Source: Nanobdellota archaeon (GTDB lineage Archaea > Aenigmatarchaeota > Aenigmatarchaeia > Aenigmatarchaeales > Aenigmatarchaeaceae). Taken from it: a stretch of DNA of 49,073 nt. Position 1 is the first letter of the stretch; each line of letters starts with the position of its first letter. Below the pieces are notes generated by a model. It searched no databases. It saw only the letters and a list, made by a program, of their open reading frames with translations, and was not told the DNA's origin. A program made the translations under genes and the position numbers. The stretch covers positions 1-49,073 of the forward strand of contig JAHIEG010000009.1 in assembly GCA_018901655.1 (NCBI GenBank). The letters run 5' to 3'. Shown here in pieces: positions 16,716 through 42,201 of this stretch.

Positions 16716-16819
16716 GGGCCCGTGGCACAGCCTGGATAGTGCGTCTGATTAATTGATTTTTTTCAATTAAGGCGAAGCTTCGGACCAGAATGTCGGGGGT
16801 TCAAATCCCTCCGAGCTCA
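16716..16819 (+). tRNA. tRNA-Arg(TCG) with a 29-nt intron at position 30/31 (16748-16776)
   Basis: spliced TCTGG-CTTCGGA-CCAGA; BHB helix CGTC/GGCG; intron hairpin TTAATTG/CAATTAA; T arm GGGGG-TTCAAAT-CCCTC; CCA encoded; one acceptor mismatch C5-A68. Confidence 0.78.
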
Positions 16820-16872
16820 CCATTTTCTATTCTTAACATATCTTTATATACCTTTAAGTAGTAACTATTACT

Positions 16873-17553
16873 ATGGATAAAGAAGAGATTTTAAGATATT
16901 TTAAGGATGAGAACAGTCCGGTTGGTCTGTTTAGATATTGTTGGCATGGTGCCCGCGATTTTAATACAACAAAAATAACAAATAATTTTATACACTACGA
17001 TGATAATAATAGGCGTAATGTGTCGTGGTCAGTATGTTCTTATGATATCGGCTCAAGGATAGTAGTTGCAGATAGATTCTGGACTGGTGATTTAAAAGAT
17101 TATCCACGTGAAGCTGTTATTTATGGAGATGTAGCCGAGGTTAAAGAAACACCAACTAAAACAAAAGATATTCTTACAAATGGCAATGATGAGGAAGCAG
17201 GCTTTCTTGCATATATACACGATGCTATTTTCGACTATGATCGTAAAAATGAAGCAATATATACCTTTATTGCACCATCTGAAAAGATAGATACCTTTGC
17301 CAGTCATATAAAACATGATCCTAGATTGGTTCATCAGGCCCTTTCTAATATTAAAATTGAACCATGTTGGATTAAAGGAATTAAAAAAATAAATGGAAAA
17401 ATGTTTATAAGTCCATATCAGGAATGGGAAAAACATCTAAAAATGTTCAGACGCGATTTTTGGAACACTCGTGAAGAATTACACCAAGATCTTTTTGTAA
17501 AATGTATTACCGAAGGAACTCAAACATATGAACTTGAAGAAGAATTCAAATAA
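16873..17553 (+). CDS. hypothetical protein, paralog 1 of a tandem pair
   Basis: MDKEE(I/V)L.YF.DE..PVGL; REAVIYGDV..; TNDILTNGNDEEAGFLAYI; EAIYTFIAPSEKID shared with the next gene. Confidence 0.8.
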   Translation: MDKEEILRYFKDENSPVGLFRYCWHGARDFNTTKITNNFIHYDDNNRRNVSWSVCSYDIGSRIVVADRFWTGDLKDYPREAVIYGDVAEVKETPTKTKDILTNGNDEEAGFLAYIHDAIFDYDRKNEAIYTFIAPSEKIDTFASHIKHDPRLVHQALSNIKIEPCWIKGIKKINGKMFISPYQEWEKHLKMFRRDFWNTREELHQDLFVKCITEGTQTYELEEEFK

Positions 17554-17631
17554 ATTTCTTATATATTGAATATATCCTTGATTTTAGGCTCTTAACATAT
17601 ATTTATATACTTTCAAGTAGTAACTATTACT

Positions 17632-18465
17632 ATGGACAAAGAAGAGGTTTTAAGTTATTTTACAGACGAGAGTAATCCCGTTGGGTTGCTTAATTATAGA
17701 TGGTATGATCTATATGATTATAGTTTAGGAACTATAAGAAATATTAATGGTAAAACTGAAATTATTTCAATTCGTGAGTATGATTGTCATGGTCAGAGAA
17801 GGAATGAAAAGTATGAAATTAACCCAGAAACAAAAATAAGTTTAAATGAAATATGTTCTTGGGGAATTGGTTCACATATACTTCGTCAAGATAGACTTTA
17901 CAATAAAGGAGTATATCCACGTGAAGCTGTTATCTATGGAGATGTGAAAGAAGCAGTAAATGCTCGTAGTGATAAAAATATAACTTCTATTAAAACAAAT
18001 GACATTCTTACAAATGGTAATGATGAAGAAGCTGGTTTTTTAGCATATATATATTCTGCTAATTATGATGATAAACGTGGTGGTGAAGCGATATATACTT
18101 TCATTGCTCCATCTGAAAAAATAGATATTTTTGCAAAACATGTAAAAGAAGATCCTAGGTTAGTTCATGATGTTCTTTCTAACATTGAACCAGTATGGAT
18201 AAAAGGACTTAAAAGGAGGGATTATAGTTGTACTAAAGAGATAAATGGAAAAATTTTTATCAGTTCTTATGATAAATGGCAGGAATATCTACAAATATTC
18301 GGAGCAAGTTTTTGGGGAATTGATAAGTATCAAGATCTTCTTGTAAAATGTATTAATGAAGGAACTCAAACATATGAACTTGAAGAAGAAATTAAAGAAA
18401 TATTCGAGAAATCATGGACTTATGAAGAATACAAAGAACATCAGGAATTAATTGAACATCCATAA
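17632..18465 (+). CDS. hypothetical protein, paralog 2 of a tandem pair
   Basis: clear paralog of 16873-17553 including its promoter region. Confidence 0.8.
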   Translation: MDKEEVLSYFTDESNPVGLLNYRWYDLYDYSLGTIRNINGKTEIISIREYDCHGQRRNEKYEINPETKISLNEICSWGIGSHILRQDRLYNKGVYPREAVIYGDVKEAVNARSDKNITSIKTNDILTNGNDEEAGFLAYIYSANYDDKRGGEAIYTFIAPSEKIDIFAKHVKEDPRLVHDVLSNIEPVWIKGLKRRDYSCTKEINGKIFISSYDKWQEYLQIFGASFWGIDKYQDLLVKCINEGTQTYELEEEIKEIFEKSWTYEEYKEHQELIEHP

Positions 18466-18598: not shown

Positions 18599-19174
18599 AT
18601 GATTATTAGGATTCCTAAAAGTCCTAAAAAAGAATTACCTAATTACTTGATAGAATATTACAGCAAAAATGAGTCATATAAAGGTTCTTTATCCTTAAAC
18701 AATATTCATGATATATTAAAAAATATTAAAGAGGAAATAGAATCAGTAAAAAAGATTAAAAACATTGATTTTGATTTTTCTAATAGAAGTATCGCATATT
18801 GGATAAATGATGAGAGAAATATCTCTGTTAGAAATTTATTTGTCCTTTTGAACAAGTGGAAATCTATTTGTAACATATTCACGAAAGCGTATAATCAATT
18901 ATTGGATGATTTATATAATAAGGCATCTTCATATGGGTATAATGGTTCAGAATCTAAGTCACTGATAAAATATATTACACCAAGAGAAGCGTACATATTT
19001 GGATATCATTTAGGTGACGGTTATCTAAATAGTGAAAATTTAATTTCATATTCTGATGCGTCAATAAATCAGTTGCATTTTATTAATTTTTTGTTTAATG
19101 ACAGATTTGTTGAAACTAAAAGAAGAGTTTATATGTTTCCATCCAAATATAATAAAAAGGTTGAGGGCCCGTAG
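18599..19174 (+). pseudogene. truncated LAGLIDADG homing endonuclease-like ORF
   Basis: REAYIFGYHLGDGYL motif near its C-terminus; stop codon lies inside the tRNA-Arg at 19165. Confidence 0.6.
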
Positions 19175-19270
19175 CGCAGTCAGGAAAACGCGTGCGGCTT
19201 CGGTTTCTCTTCTATAGTTTCAAGAGAAGAGGTTACCGCAAGATCGGGGGTTCAAATCCCTCCGGGCTCA
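19165..19270 (+). tRNA. tRNA-Arg(TCG) with a 31-nt intron at 37/38 (19204-19234); attL
   Basis: GGGCCCG/CGGGCTC acceptor; TGCGG-CTTCGGA-CCGCA spliced arm; BHB helix CTTC/GAGG; intron hairpin TTCTCTT/AAGAGAA; no encoded CCA. Confidence 0.87.
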
Positions 19271-19329
19271 CTCTTTTTTAGTTCAGTGTACCAATAACTT
19301 TATAAGTAATACTATGTATTATACTTATT

Positions 19330-20613
19330 ATGACATATGATATACCAGATATACACAACACAAAGAGAAAGTTTGAAACCACCATGAGTTTGTTAGAGAA
19401 AGATAGAACAGTGTCTAGAAATAATAAAGAAATTATCAAGAAATTTATTATGACAAAATCTTATGCAGGTTTTTCAATCAAAATAAGACATATCTATACT
19501 TTAATGTTTATTGCTAGACATCTTAAGAAAGATTTTCAAGATGTAACAAATGGGGAGTTACATAAATTATTCTATGATATGAGTAGTGGAAAGATAACAA
19601 AAAAAGACGGTACGCCATACAAATCACTTAGATATTTTAAGAAATCTGTAAGAGAGCTTTATATTAAAATTATAAAGAAAAAGAGAGTTATTGAAGGCAT
19701 TAAGACTGTTAATATATTAAAGGATCTTCATAGAAAAGACTTTTGGACAAGAGATGAAATCTTAAGTTTTCCAAGTTATGCTTCAAATTTGATGGACAAG
19801 GCTTTAACTTCTTTACTGATCTTAGGTGGAAATATTTCAGAATATGGTAGATTATTTGTTTCAGATATAGAAAAAGCTGATGATTATTTGATAGTATCTG
19901 TAAGGAATAGTAAAAATAAACATAGAACTCGTACAGTGTATATGTATGAGAACAATGTTCATATAATTAATTGGATTGATTCTCATCCTTTGAAAGATAG
20001 TAAAGATTTTCCTAATGTTCCACTTTTTATTGTTAAATGGAAAGATGGATGGAAATTACCTTCTTATAATTTTTTCTCAAATCATGTTAGTGAGATAGCT
20101 AAAAAAGTTAATTCTGATAAACCTCCTAATACTCATATATTTAGAAATAGCGTTGCGTTTTGGAAATATCAAAACGGTATGCATGATTTAGAGTTGAATA
20201 GAAGTATGGGCTGGGCATTAGGATCTAACATGAAAGCAAGATATATTCGATGTGATGATGAAGGTGTTATGAACGAGGAGCTGAGGATTAGAGGTTTAAT
20301 TAATAAGGTAGAGAAAAAGAAAGATGAGTTGATAAGTTGTTTAAGATGTCAAACTAAGTATACTAATCCCGATCTTGATAAAAGTCCTCACTGTTCTAGA
20401 TGTGGATTTACTATGAATCCAAAACTTAGAGAAGAAGAGATGTTAAGGCGTCAAGATAATATGAATCTTTATGCTAAAGCTATTGCTTTTACTGATGGAG
20501 ATAATAGAGATAAGTTAACTAAGCTTCAAGATGTTTCTAAAACACTTAGTGATGTTCAGAAAGATGAGATTAGGAACATTGTTGTGAAAATGTTGAACGA
20601 GAGCATTGTTTAA
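19330..20613 (+). CDS. tyrosine recombinase/integrase with C-terminal zinc ribbon
   Basis: THIFRNSVAFWKYQNG...SMGWALGSNMKARYIR catalytic-like region; CLRCQTKY...HCSRCGF. Confidence 0.85.
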   Translation: MTYDIPDIHNTKRKFETTMSLLEKDRTVSRNNKEIIKKFIMTKSYAGFSIKIRHIYTLMFIARHLKKDFQDVTNGELHKLFYDMSSGKITKKDGTPYKSLRYFKKSVRELYIKIIKKKRVIEGIKTVNILKDLHRKDFWTRDEILSFPSYASNLMDKALTSLLILGGNISEYGRLFVSDIEKADDYLIVSVRNSKNKHRTRTVYMYENNVHIINWIDSHPLKDSKDFPNVPLFIVKWKDGWKLPSYNFFSNHVSEIAKKVNSDKPPNTHIFRNSVAFWKYQNGMHDLELNRSMGWALGSNMKARYIRCDDEGVMNEELRIRGLINKVEKKKDELISCLRCQTKYTNPDLDKSPHCSRCGFTMNPKLREEEMLRRQDNMNLYAKAIAFTDGDNRDKLTKLQDVSKTLSDVQKDEIRNIVVKMLNESIV

Positions 20614-29935: not shown

Positions 29936-30331
29936 ATGAAAACAATTTTAGTAGATGCAATTAATTGTTTTGTAATAAAAAAAGAAGATGGTATTTTTCA
30001 GATTTTTAAAGAAATGCAAGATTTGTTAGAAAGGTTTCCAAATAAGAAAATTATTCTTACAAGTGCAAATGATGAACAAGTCAAAAAATTTGGTTTAGAT
30101 AAAATGCCTTGGGAAGTTTTTACGTTGAAGCATAGTCCTGAAAAGACAAATCCCGAATATTACAAAATTATGTTGCAGAAGTTTAATCTTTCTCCTGAAG
30201 ATGTTATGTATTTTGAACATAGTCTCGATGCAATGAAAAGTGCCGAATCTGTTGGCATAACTACTTTTTATTATGACAATGATAAAAAAGATTTGACTGC
30301 ATTAAAACAATTTCTTGATAAGAATTTATAA
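29936..30331 (+). CDS. HAD-like hydrolase domain protein
   Basis: KKIILTSANDEQVKKFGL...FNLSPEDVMYFEHSLDAMKSAESVGITTFYY. Confidence 0.6.
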   Translation: MKTILVDAINCFVIKKEDGIFQIFKEMQDLLERFPNKKIILTSANDEQVKKFGLDKMPWEVFTLKHSPEKTNPEYYKIMLQKFNLSPEDVMYFEHSLDAMKSAESVGITTFYYDNDKKDLTALKQFLDKNL

Positions 30332-31270
30332 GAAATTAAATTCTAGTATTTTTAATTCTTTCATCAGTTCATCAACAATTTCTTCAAACGACCCATCTAC
30401 AATAATCTCTTCTATAAACCCATAACCTATTTTATCAAACATCTCATGACAAGAAATACAATCATGTTCAACCGAAATATTCAAACCATAAGCATCATTC
30501 ATCTTTTCAGCTATAACCTTTGGATCAAAAGCAGACAATGTTTTAATAAACTTACCAATCTTCCTAACCCTAGGTTCAATAACATCTAACGGCTCACCAA
30601 GTTCTCCTATCTTTCCAACTTCAGGAACATCACCACAAAAATAAAGTCCTGTTGGAGAAACAAATGCACTTATAGGTCTATCTTCTTCAAGTTGAGAAGC
30701 CAAATAATCTATTGCGCATTCAGTGATTTTATCTTTCTTTCTGTTATTTACCCATCGGTCTTTTGGAAGACTGTACCCTCTTCTTATTGGTACTACTCTT
30801 TTTACACTTCTTATTTTGAATTCTGGATAATTTACACCATGAGCTTCGTATAATGTAGTAATTACTTCATCTAATTGATCTTTAATACTATTTTGTTGAT
30901 CTCTTCTAAATTCATCTATGCTTAATATAATTTCATCTAGCCCTACTTGTTTTAACTCTCTTAGATATTCATCAGAATTATTACCTTTCATCCATAAACA
31001 GTTTGTAAACATGTATATATTTTCTGGATAACTAGATTGTTCTCTTTTCTGGTCTGCATATTGAATTATATTTATTAACTCAGGATATAGAGTAGGTTCT
31101 CCACCTGTTAGATTAAAATCTATTGTTTGATGTTCTGGAGTTTGATCTATGTAAAACTTAGCTTGATCTAATGTTAATTCACCTTTTGAGTCTGGCCCAT
31201 AGTTCCCAAAACAATGAGAACAATTAGAATCACATCTTCTAGTTAGTTGTAGATTCAGACGTTTAATCAT
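30326..31270 (-). CDS. radical SAM protein
   Basis: CDSNCSHC cluster motif, FNLTGGEPTLYPEL, additional C-terminal Cys (DCISCHEMF). Confidence 0.93.
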   Translation of the reverse strand: MIKRLNLQLTRRCDSNCSHCFGNYGPDSKGELTLDQAKFYIDQTPEHQTIDFNLTGGEPTLYPELINIIQYADQKREQSSYPENIYMFTNCLWMKGNNSDEYLRELKQVGLDEIILSIDEFRRDQQNSIKDQLDEVITTLYEAHGVNYPEFKIRSVKRVVPIRRGYSLPKDRWVNNRKKDKITECAIDYLASQLEEDRPISAFVSPTGLYFCGDVPEVGKIGELGEPLDVIEPRVRKIGKFIKTLSAFDPKVIAEKMNDAYGLNISVEHDCISCHEMFDKIGYGFIEEIIVDGSFEEIVDELMKELKILEFNFL

Positions 31271-31419
31271 AATATTAATTGTATAGAAAACTTTATATTC
31301 ACTACCCTCGGGGGTAAGAAGAGGTTATTCGAAAGGTTCGTATTTTTAAATTTATAAGAAGCGTTAATATATATAAGAAAAACAATAGTAAATTTAGACG
31401 TATTGTAGTAGGTGGGTTT

Positions 31420-31617
31420 ATGGCTGAAGATGAAAAAACAACACTTGAAAGATTTATAAAAGTATTTTCTGGTCTTCCATTGGAAGAAAGAAGTCAAACA
31501 ATTGCAGTTATAGATGAACAGCCAATAAACTGGAATCTAGCCTATCAACATATTAAAAATAATACTGAACTTGGAAAGAAAATAGGCGAAAAGCTTAAAG
31601 AATTAGAAATAATCTAG
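31420..31617 (+). CDS. small protein, protease operon companion 1
   Basis: 65 aa; similar layout to the next ORF. Confidence 0.65.
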   Translation: MAEDEKTTLERFIKVFSGLPLEERSQTIAVIDEQPINWNLAYQHIKNNTELGKKIGEKLKELEII

Positions 31618-31626
31618 GTCATTGAT

Positions 31627-31833
31627 ATGATAGAAGATGAGAAAAAATTAACCATTGCTCGTTTAGAACACATGCCAGCTCATATAAAGTTGGCTATAGG
31701 TAGTTTTGGCTCTTTTGATAAATGGGAGCTTATGCAGGCTGTAAAAGATGAAAACCCTCTTGGCAATTTTTTAGTCAATGAAATTATGGAAGATGTTAGA
31801 TCATTTAAGAAGGCCGATAAAAATGACAAATAA
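31627..31833 (+). CDS. small protein, protease operon companion 2
   Basis: 68 aa; overlaps the protease start. Confidence 0.65.
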   Translation: MIEDEKKLTIARLEHMPAHIKLAIGSFGSFDKWELMQAVKDENPLGNFLVNEIMEDVRSFKKADKNDK

Positions 31834-32473
31834 CACAATGTTAATAACAAGACCTAACCATGATCCAGAAACATGTTATTTATATCGCTGGAGCGAAGAT
31901 ATTATAAATTTTGCACATAGTAAAAATGTGGATGTTTTTGATCTTAGTGATAAAAAATCAAATAGAAGTGATTTTGAAAGTTATCTAAATAAAAGAAAAC
32001 CCGGACTCGTGATCATAAATGGTCATGGAACCGAAACTGAGATACTTGGGCAAGATAATAAAGTGTTGATTAAAGCTGATGACAATGAAGATGTCTTAGA
32101 ATCAAAAATAGTTTACTCGAGAACATGTGCTTCTGCCAAAATTCTTGGTCCTAAATGTATAGATTCTGGTACAATAGCATTTATTGGTTATACTGGTAAT
32201 TTCTTATTTGTATTTAATTCTAGTAAAGTTAGTAATCCCGAAACCGACGAAATCGGCAACATATTTGCTAAATCAACAAACATTATACCAATTTCATTAA
32301 TGAAAGGTAATAAAGTAGAAGATGCTGTTTCAAAATCAGTTCAAATTATGAAAGAACAAATTGATTATTATTCTGCCAATGATACATTGGAATCTCCAAC
32401 AATTCTTTTTTGTTTAAGGAGAAATTTGGTTCATCAAATAGTTCATGGAGATAAACAGGCTATTTTTAATTAA
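31823..32473 (+). CDS. caspase/CHAT/C25-like cysteine protease
   Basis: GLVIINGHGTETEILG (His) and VYSRTCASAKILGPKCIDSGTIAFIGYTG (Cys) dyad pattern; start refined to MTNNTM. Confidence 0.7.
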   Translation: MTNNTMLITRPNHDPETCYLYRWSEDIINFAHSKNVDVFDLSDKKSNRSDFESYLNKRKPGLVIINGHGTETEILGQDNKVLIKADDNEDVLESKIVYSRTCASAKILGPKCIDSGTIAFIGYTGNFLFVFNSSKVSNPETDEIGNIFAKSTNIIPISLMKGNKVEDAVSKSVQIMKEQIDYYSANDTLESPTILFCLRRNLVHQIVHGDKQAIFN

Positions 32474-42188: not shown

Positions 42189-42201
42189 CTCCGGGCTCAC
42201 T
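42189..42201 (+). repeat. attR candidate, 13-bp copy of the tRNA-Arg 3' end
   Basis: ctccgggctcact identical to 19260-19272. Confidence 0.7.

Follow-up and report, generated by a model that had tools for sequence, protein, structure and literature searches.

Two small proteins and a predicted caspase-fold protease form a conserved gene cassette in DPANN archaea and CPR bacteria: a candidate toxin-antitoxin-like module

Introduction

Caspase-fold proteases execute regulated death in animals, and they are effectors in some bacterial immune systems. What is a caspase-like gene doing in an archaeon, directly behind two very short open reading frames? The window analysed here, 49,073 nucleotides in all, is a contig of a 0.66-Mb archaeal MAG. 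The original prediction, made from the letters of the window, described a caspase/CHAT-like protease operon with two small paralogous companions inside a mobile element, and suggested a role in defence, abortive infection or element stability. We ask what the protease is, what its companions are, how the three genes are inherited together, and which function that inheritance favours.

Results

The cassette in the window

The three predicted open reading frames are all present on the forward strand where they had been placed. The genes encode protein A (31420..31617, 65 aa), protein B (31627..31833, 68 aa) and protein C (31823..32473, 216 aa from the ATG at 31823). A and B are separated by 9 nt, and the first 11 nt of C lie within the end of B, which bears out the overlap that had been read between the second small gene and the protease. 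Upstream, reading the sequence by eye, we place a probable promoter and ribosome-binding region of the operon at 31351..31416 (+), with unscored TATA-like elements TTTATAAG (31351-31358) and AATATATATAAG (31367-31378), and an equally unscored Shine-Dalgarno-like AGGTGGG (31410-31416) ahead of A.

Protein C is a predicted clan CD protease

The AlphaFold2 model of C, built with 24 natural homologues, has pLDDT 97.3 and pTM 0.93, and its best 26 Foldseek matches in the PDB are clan CD enzymes. The top match is SAVED-CHAT (8tl0, E 6e-7, query TM 0.59) and the next distinct neighbour is gingipain R (RgpB, 1cvr, E ~1.3e-5, TM 0.64), followed by CED-3, caspase-4/-11, C11 proteases and separases. Two residues of catalytic type, His68 in NGHG (codon CAT, 32024..32026, +) and Cys102 in SRTCASA (codon TGT, 32126..32128, +), come after the core strands 62-66 and 96-100 respectively, as expected for clan CD. 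Across 51 distinct complete cassettes, in which the median pairwise identity of C is 35%, the cysteine is conserved in all 51 and the histidine in 50. The caspase fold and the conserved His/Cys dyad that the original prediction had read in this gene are thus both recovered, and we regard the assignment of C as a predicted clan CD caspase-fold cysteine protease as supported.

The family within the clan is another matter. Neither the C14 model PF00656 nor the CHAT model PF12770 matches C in the window's genome or in any of the 24 members, and the residue two positions before the cysteine is R (20), L (14), I (9), V (5) or F (3) in the 51 cassettes, so the cysteine motif is neither the QACxG of caspases nor the DxCxSG of metacaspases. 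By sequence, C is thus placed neither in C14, where position -2 would be Q or D, nor in CHAT. The label "CHAT-like" therefore holds for the nearest fold and does not hold for family membership. Peptidase_C25 (PF01364) touches 2 of the 24 members weakly (best E 1.4e-4) and does not match the C of the window. C falls in no Pfam, NCBIfam or PADLOC family among those searched, PDB searches by sequence with A, B and C give nothing convincing, and the fold matches of C in BFVD go no further than clan CD proteins in general. The most fitting label for C is a new family within clan CD. One patescibacterial locus (L237:6268-7314) encodes a full-length C in which Tyr replaces the catalytic His (NGYG), reminiscent of pseudo-orthocaspases; it retains A and B and is flanked by a 150-nt direct repeat.

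The fold neighbours differ from C in what accompanies the protease. SAVED-CHAT, also a prokaryotic caspase-fold protease, serves as an immune effector in type III CRISPR, whereas C has no SAVED domain or CRISPR partner and stands alone at 216 aa with A and B. Gingipains are secreted, while C lacks accessory domains. Caspases, metacaspases and orthocaspases share with C the fold and the order His then Cys, and differ from it at the Cys -2 position, which is Q in caspases and D in the metacaspase DxC.

Proteins A and B are apparently distant paralogues

The A family follows the pattern 'RFxKxYxNLPxxxRxEIIxVIDxxPITWxxAYxEIxNxTxLGxxIxxKLxELxII-stop', with W38 and I55 invariant and F12, P20, R24 and A41 near-invariant; its AlphaFold2 model is alpha-alpha-beta-beta-alpha-alpha (pLDDT 87, pTM 0.68). 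The B family follows 'VxxRLexMPxxxxlSiGsxGxFskxELIexVkkxdeiGkkIvexqlxyLrxlK', with R12 and G46 invariant and G25 near-invariant. Aligned by HHalign, the two profiles score 21.9 over 30 columns (P 4e-4), whereas 60 column-permuted controls reach 13.9 at most; either profile also gives a weak match to the partner protein, located in that same region. On these two results the shared layout that had been noticed by eye holds, and a distant paralogy of A and B seems likely; the resemblance lies in the second half of the proteins, and the N-terminal M.EDEK that had been cited for it is not the shared part.

A and B are two new small protein families. We find no relative of A in the PDB, Pfam or PADLOC, nor any PDB fold that matches its model; B has no Pfam match above cut-off and no PADLOC match. 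Neither protein matches a known antitoxin, and no DNA-binding domain is recognised in either. We considered DUF7713 as the family of A, on matches to four members (best E 6e-4), and dropped it after a recheck in which 2 of 10 members reach only E ~0.1 over 14-16 residues, the best-scoring member lying outside the ten.

A, B and C are inherited as one operon

In the 51 complete cassettes the three genes lie on one strand in the constant order A-B-C, with a median gap of 1 nt between A and B and of -4 nt between B and C. This constancy, with gaps near zero, favours A, B and C being stoichiometric, translationally coupled partners. The same order is seen in all homologous loci with sufficient contig and an undecayed cassette: A and B stand upstream of C at all 26 loci found in a scan of 85,488 named GTDB species, and among 294 Patescibacteria B and C occur, adjacent, in the same 11 genomes. 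The divergences of A, B and C are correlated, with r 0.62-0.65 where permutation gives maxima of 0.18-0.24. A-B-C is a conserved operon, far beyond chance. All three genes are under purifying selection, with dN/dS in close pairs of 0.04-0.13, about 0.07, for A, B and C alike.

The cassette lies in an integrated element and moves as a unit of its own

A tRNA (19165-19270, Rfam) abuts a tyrosine integrase (19330-20613), and the 13-bp sequence CTCCGGGCTCACT at the 3' end of the tRNA (19260..19272) recurs once in the window, at 42189..42201, where shuffling gives an expectation of 0. Since these left and right attachment-site cores bracket both the integrase and the cassette, the cassette is cargo of a tRNA-integrated element of about 23 kb (~19.26-42.20 kb), and its claimed position inside an element stands.

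Several other features of the element and its surroundings deserve description. The element encodes AAA/Orc-like ATPases, a HerA/FtsK-like ATPase and a YdjM-type membrane protein; a further protein of 568 aa, perhaps a primase/helicase, has no Pfam match. A ~30-nt motif, AAATCCATATTTAAGCTTTTCTAACG, occurs five times between 23989 and 27936, close to where successive element genes begin; it may be the shared promoter or operator of a regulon within the element. Divergent from the cassette is a Radical SAM protein (30326-31270, -; Pfam Radical_SAM 5e-15), which in its N-terminal part is matched by the pVip (viperin) models of PADLOC (1e-13), maybe just through the shared radical-SAM core. In the region 16716-18401, two tandem paralogous genes with blocks 74-97% identical separate the element from a second intron-containing tRNA (16716-16819); as both tRNAs have the same 3' end, this region may be an older insertion.

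Two loci of one genus (L245 and L249) are homologous over ~1.11 kb, which is the cassette alone, in the stretches compared. Direct repeats of 30-235 nt, different at each locus, flank 8 of 56 cassettes and outscore all 600 mismatched controls; several of them resemble the 3' ends of neighbouring genes. To judge from such comparisons, A-B-C moves as a unit of ~1.1 kb. The repeats near two loci (L053 and L057) and the spread of the cassette across domains prompted the idea of an integron gene cassette, which is unsupported: attC sites (RYYYAAC...GTTRRRY) follow 2 of 51 cassettes, with 0.9 expected. At one of these loci (L057:3514-5552), a ~32-47-nt sequence resembling the 3' end of a methyltransferase gene occurs five times upstream of the cassette, at spacings of 400-620 nt, and may mark an insertion hot spot.

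The cassette is patchy and crosses domains

Relatives of C occur in 23 of 197 related genomes, the window's own included. By profile search, the cassette is found in 20 of 160 genomes of the window's phylum, in 31 of 396 archaea (these 20 among them), in 11 of 294 Patescibacteria and in 3 of 148 genomes of the Omnitrophota phylum; two genomes (G040 and G758) carry three copies each. The scan of named species matches only DPANN archaea, CPR bacteria and one member of the Omnitrophota, the archaeal matches coming from Aenigmatarchaeota, Diapherotrites, Woese-, Pace-, Nanohal-, Micr- and Parvarchaeota and further archaeal MAGs. A restriction to DPANN, CPR and Omnitrophota is likely, and it is stated at that strength because bacterial phyla beyond Patescibacteria and Omnitrophota are covered by the pattern scan only. 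CPR bacterial sequences fall at three separate places in the archaeal tree, which suggests more than one transfer of the module between the domains.

This distribution bears on whether the module belongs to cellular conflict at all. C could be a regulatory protease, for instance one that processes surface or cell-cycle proteins of episymbionts in the manner of separase, with A and B as chaperone- or securin-like partners. Separases are among the fold neighbours of C, and the organisms matched in the named scan have small, often host-dependent genomes. Against this, ~88-98% of the sampled genomes of these phyla lack the cassette, and its divergent multiple copies, frequent decay, horizontal mobility and location on an element are unlike a core function. 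We consider a non-conflict role very unlikely.

Loss of the three genes is asymmetric

Among the loci collected we see no intact C without an intact B. Six loci (L032, L038, L182, L238, L240 and L242) have intact A and B with a broken C, five genomes (L170-L174) have a solitary intact B, one (L175) has a solitary A, and three loci (L178, L244 and L257) retain decayed fragments of C only. The excess of broken C is weak by itself, since C makes up ~62% of the cassette length and six breaks out of six in C have p ~0.06 under damage proportional to length; errors in the MAGs may also contribute to these counts. For one pair of solitary B genes (L172 and L173) dN/dS is 0.34 (Nd 12, Sd 8), a weak constraint. 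In these two genomes, of the same genus, the solitary B stands beside a gene resembling type I restriction methylases, and no remnant of A or C is seen.

Taken with the solitary B genes, the asymmetric loss points to a C that depends on its partners; such a pattern is expected of a toxin that needs its antidote. Together with the patchy, mobile, cross-domain distribution, it favours a toxin-like module. Our preferred reading, held tentatively and at a little under an even chance, is that A-B-C is a protease module of toxin-antitoxin or abortive-infection type, in which C would be the toxic effector and A and B its restraint. C, a cytoplasmic caspase-fold cysteine protease, would be the effector of a self-contained mobile module. 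A and B would be made just ahead of it from the same overlapping operon and would bind it, probably as a pair, holding it inactive or correctly folded. The restraint would be lost when A and B are degraded, are outcompeted, or sense an invader or the loss of the element, and the freed C would cleave host proteins, leading to growth arrest or death. Such a tripartite unit could stabilise the element that carries it or exclude rivals. The operon, the caspase fold and dyad, the purifying selection, the joint inheritance, the mobility and the spread between domains are what we observe; the binding of A and B to C, the inhibition, the proteolytic activity, the toxicity and the trigger are inferred. 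Counting against this reading are the lack of any match of A and B to known antitoxins or DNA-binding domains, the weakness of the broken-C excess by itself and of the constraint on L172 and L173, the small number of defence-type neighbours, the absence of relatives from IMG/VR and the phage and plasmid collections, and the tyrosine in place of His68 in L237.

A and B might instead act as sensors. They would then be adaptor subunits that recognise a cue from an invader and activate C, making the module an abortive-infection defence without antidotes. Control of caspase-fold effectors by adaptor domains is an established principle of conflict systems, as far as the parts of two sources that we consulted describe it (PMC7159879, PMC8195603). 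Co-inheritance, patchiness and mobility fit such sensors equally well, and two paralogous proteins could form a heterodimeric one. A solitary intact B, or intact A and B beside a broken C, would however be useless as activators, and no nucleotide-binding domain or CARF, SAVED or NTPase sensor domain accompanies the cassette. The neighbourhood speaks in the same direction: there is no clear enrichment in defence islands, with no clear excess of Pfam defence families in 145 neighbours compared with 145 control genes and few defence-type neighbours (AbiEii 2 and NTP_transf_2 2 of the 145). Nor do A, B or C match any PADLOC 2.0.0 model. We judge activation by A and B to be rather unlikely. Homologues of the cassette are absent from the viral, phage and plasmid sequences searched (IMG/VR, phage and plasmid collections).

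A third relation between the proteins is that A, B or both are substrates of C, and that cleavage releases an active agent such as a small toxin, a signal or a pore. Bacterial gasdermins are activated by proteases; here, two strictly linked small proteins adjoin the protease, and the C-terminus of A is conserved as hydrophobic, with pairs such as II, LI and IL ending 40 of 51 sequences. For comparison, the orthocaspase MaOC1 cuts an antitoxin, according to the part of the report that we consulted (PMC7935541). By reading, however, neither A nor B has an evident conserved basic or acidic cleavage-like motif or a noticeable transmembrane segment, and where C is broken, intact A and B would be a pro-effector without its activator. 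Release of an agent from A or B seems to us quite unlikely.

Discussion

The restraint of C by A and B, which we prefer, can be set beside systems already known. Nearest in fold are SAVED-CHAT and gingipain; nearest in logic is MaOC1 with its ParE/ParD-type pair. In the portion of that work available to us, MaOC1 is a prokaryotic caspase homologue linked to two small genes of a toxin-antitoxin pair, with direct repeats nearby and a tie to growth arrest; by cutting the antitoxin it activates a RelE/ParE-like toxin (PMC7935541). MaOC1 thus acts on a toxin-antitoxin pair, whereas here the protease itself is the presumed toxin, and A and B are unlike any RelE, ParE or ParD protein. Type II toxin-antitoxin systems resemble the cassette in their gene layout, a small gene that immediately precedes the effector gene or runs into it, as at the junctions of our 51 cassettes, in leaving solitary antidote-like relics, and in being patchy and mobile. 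They differ in that the cassette has two small proteins for one and a protease as its presumed toxin, and in that A and B have no known antitoxin fold, which in type II systems is usually a DNA-binding one (no PDB fold match for A, no Pfam match above cut-off for A or B).

A role in defence, abortive infection or element stability, as originally proposed, is plausible. We find no description of the A-B-C cassette in the open-access literature searched, and it is apparently undescribed so far. It is possible, although less likely than not, that the cassette represents an undescribed class, in which a caspase-fold protease toxin would be restrained by two paralogous small proteins encoded in the same ~1.1-kb unit, carried mainly by ultra-small, mostly host-dependent DPANN, CPR and Omnitrophota, where it would serve these episymbionts as a switch of caspase type for cell suicide or addiction.

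The interest of the cassette lies in its compact three-gene form, widespread in DPANN archaea and also present in CPR bacteria. It gives two new small protein families, A and B, an evident partner in C. If the proposed reading is true, it would be a minimal and testable caspase-type switch with built-in small regulators, and it would be a case of a mobile module that passes between the two domains among uncultured organisms with reduced genomes.
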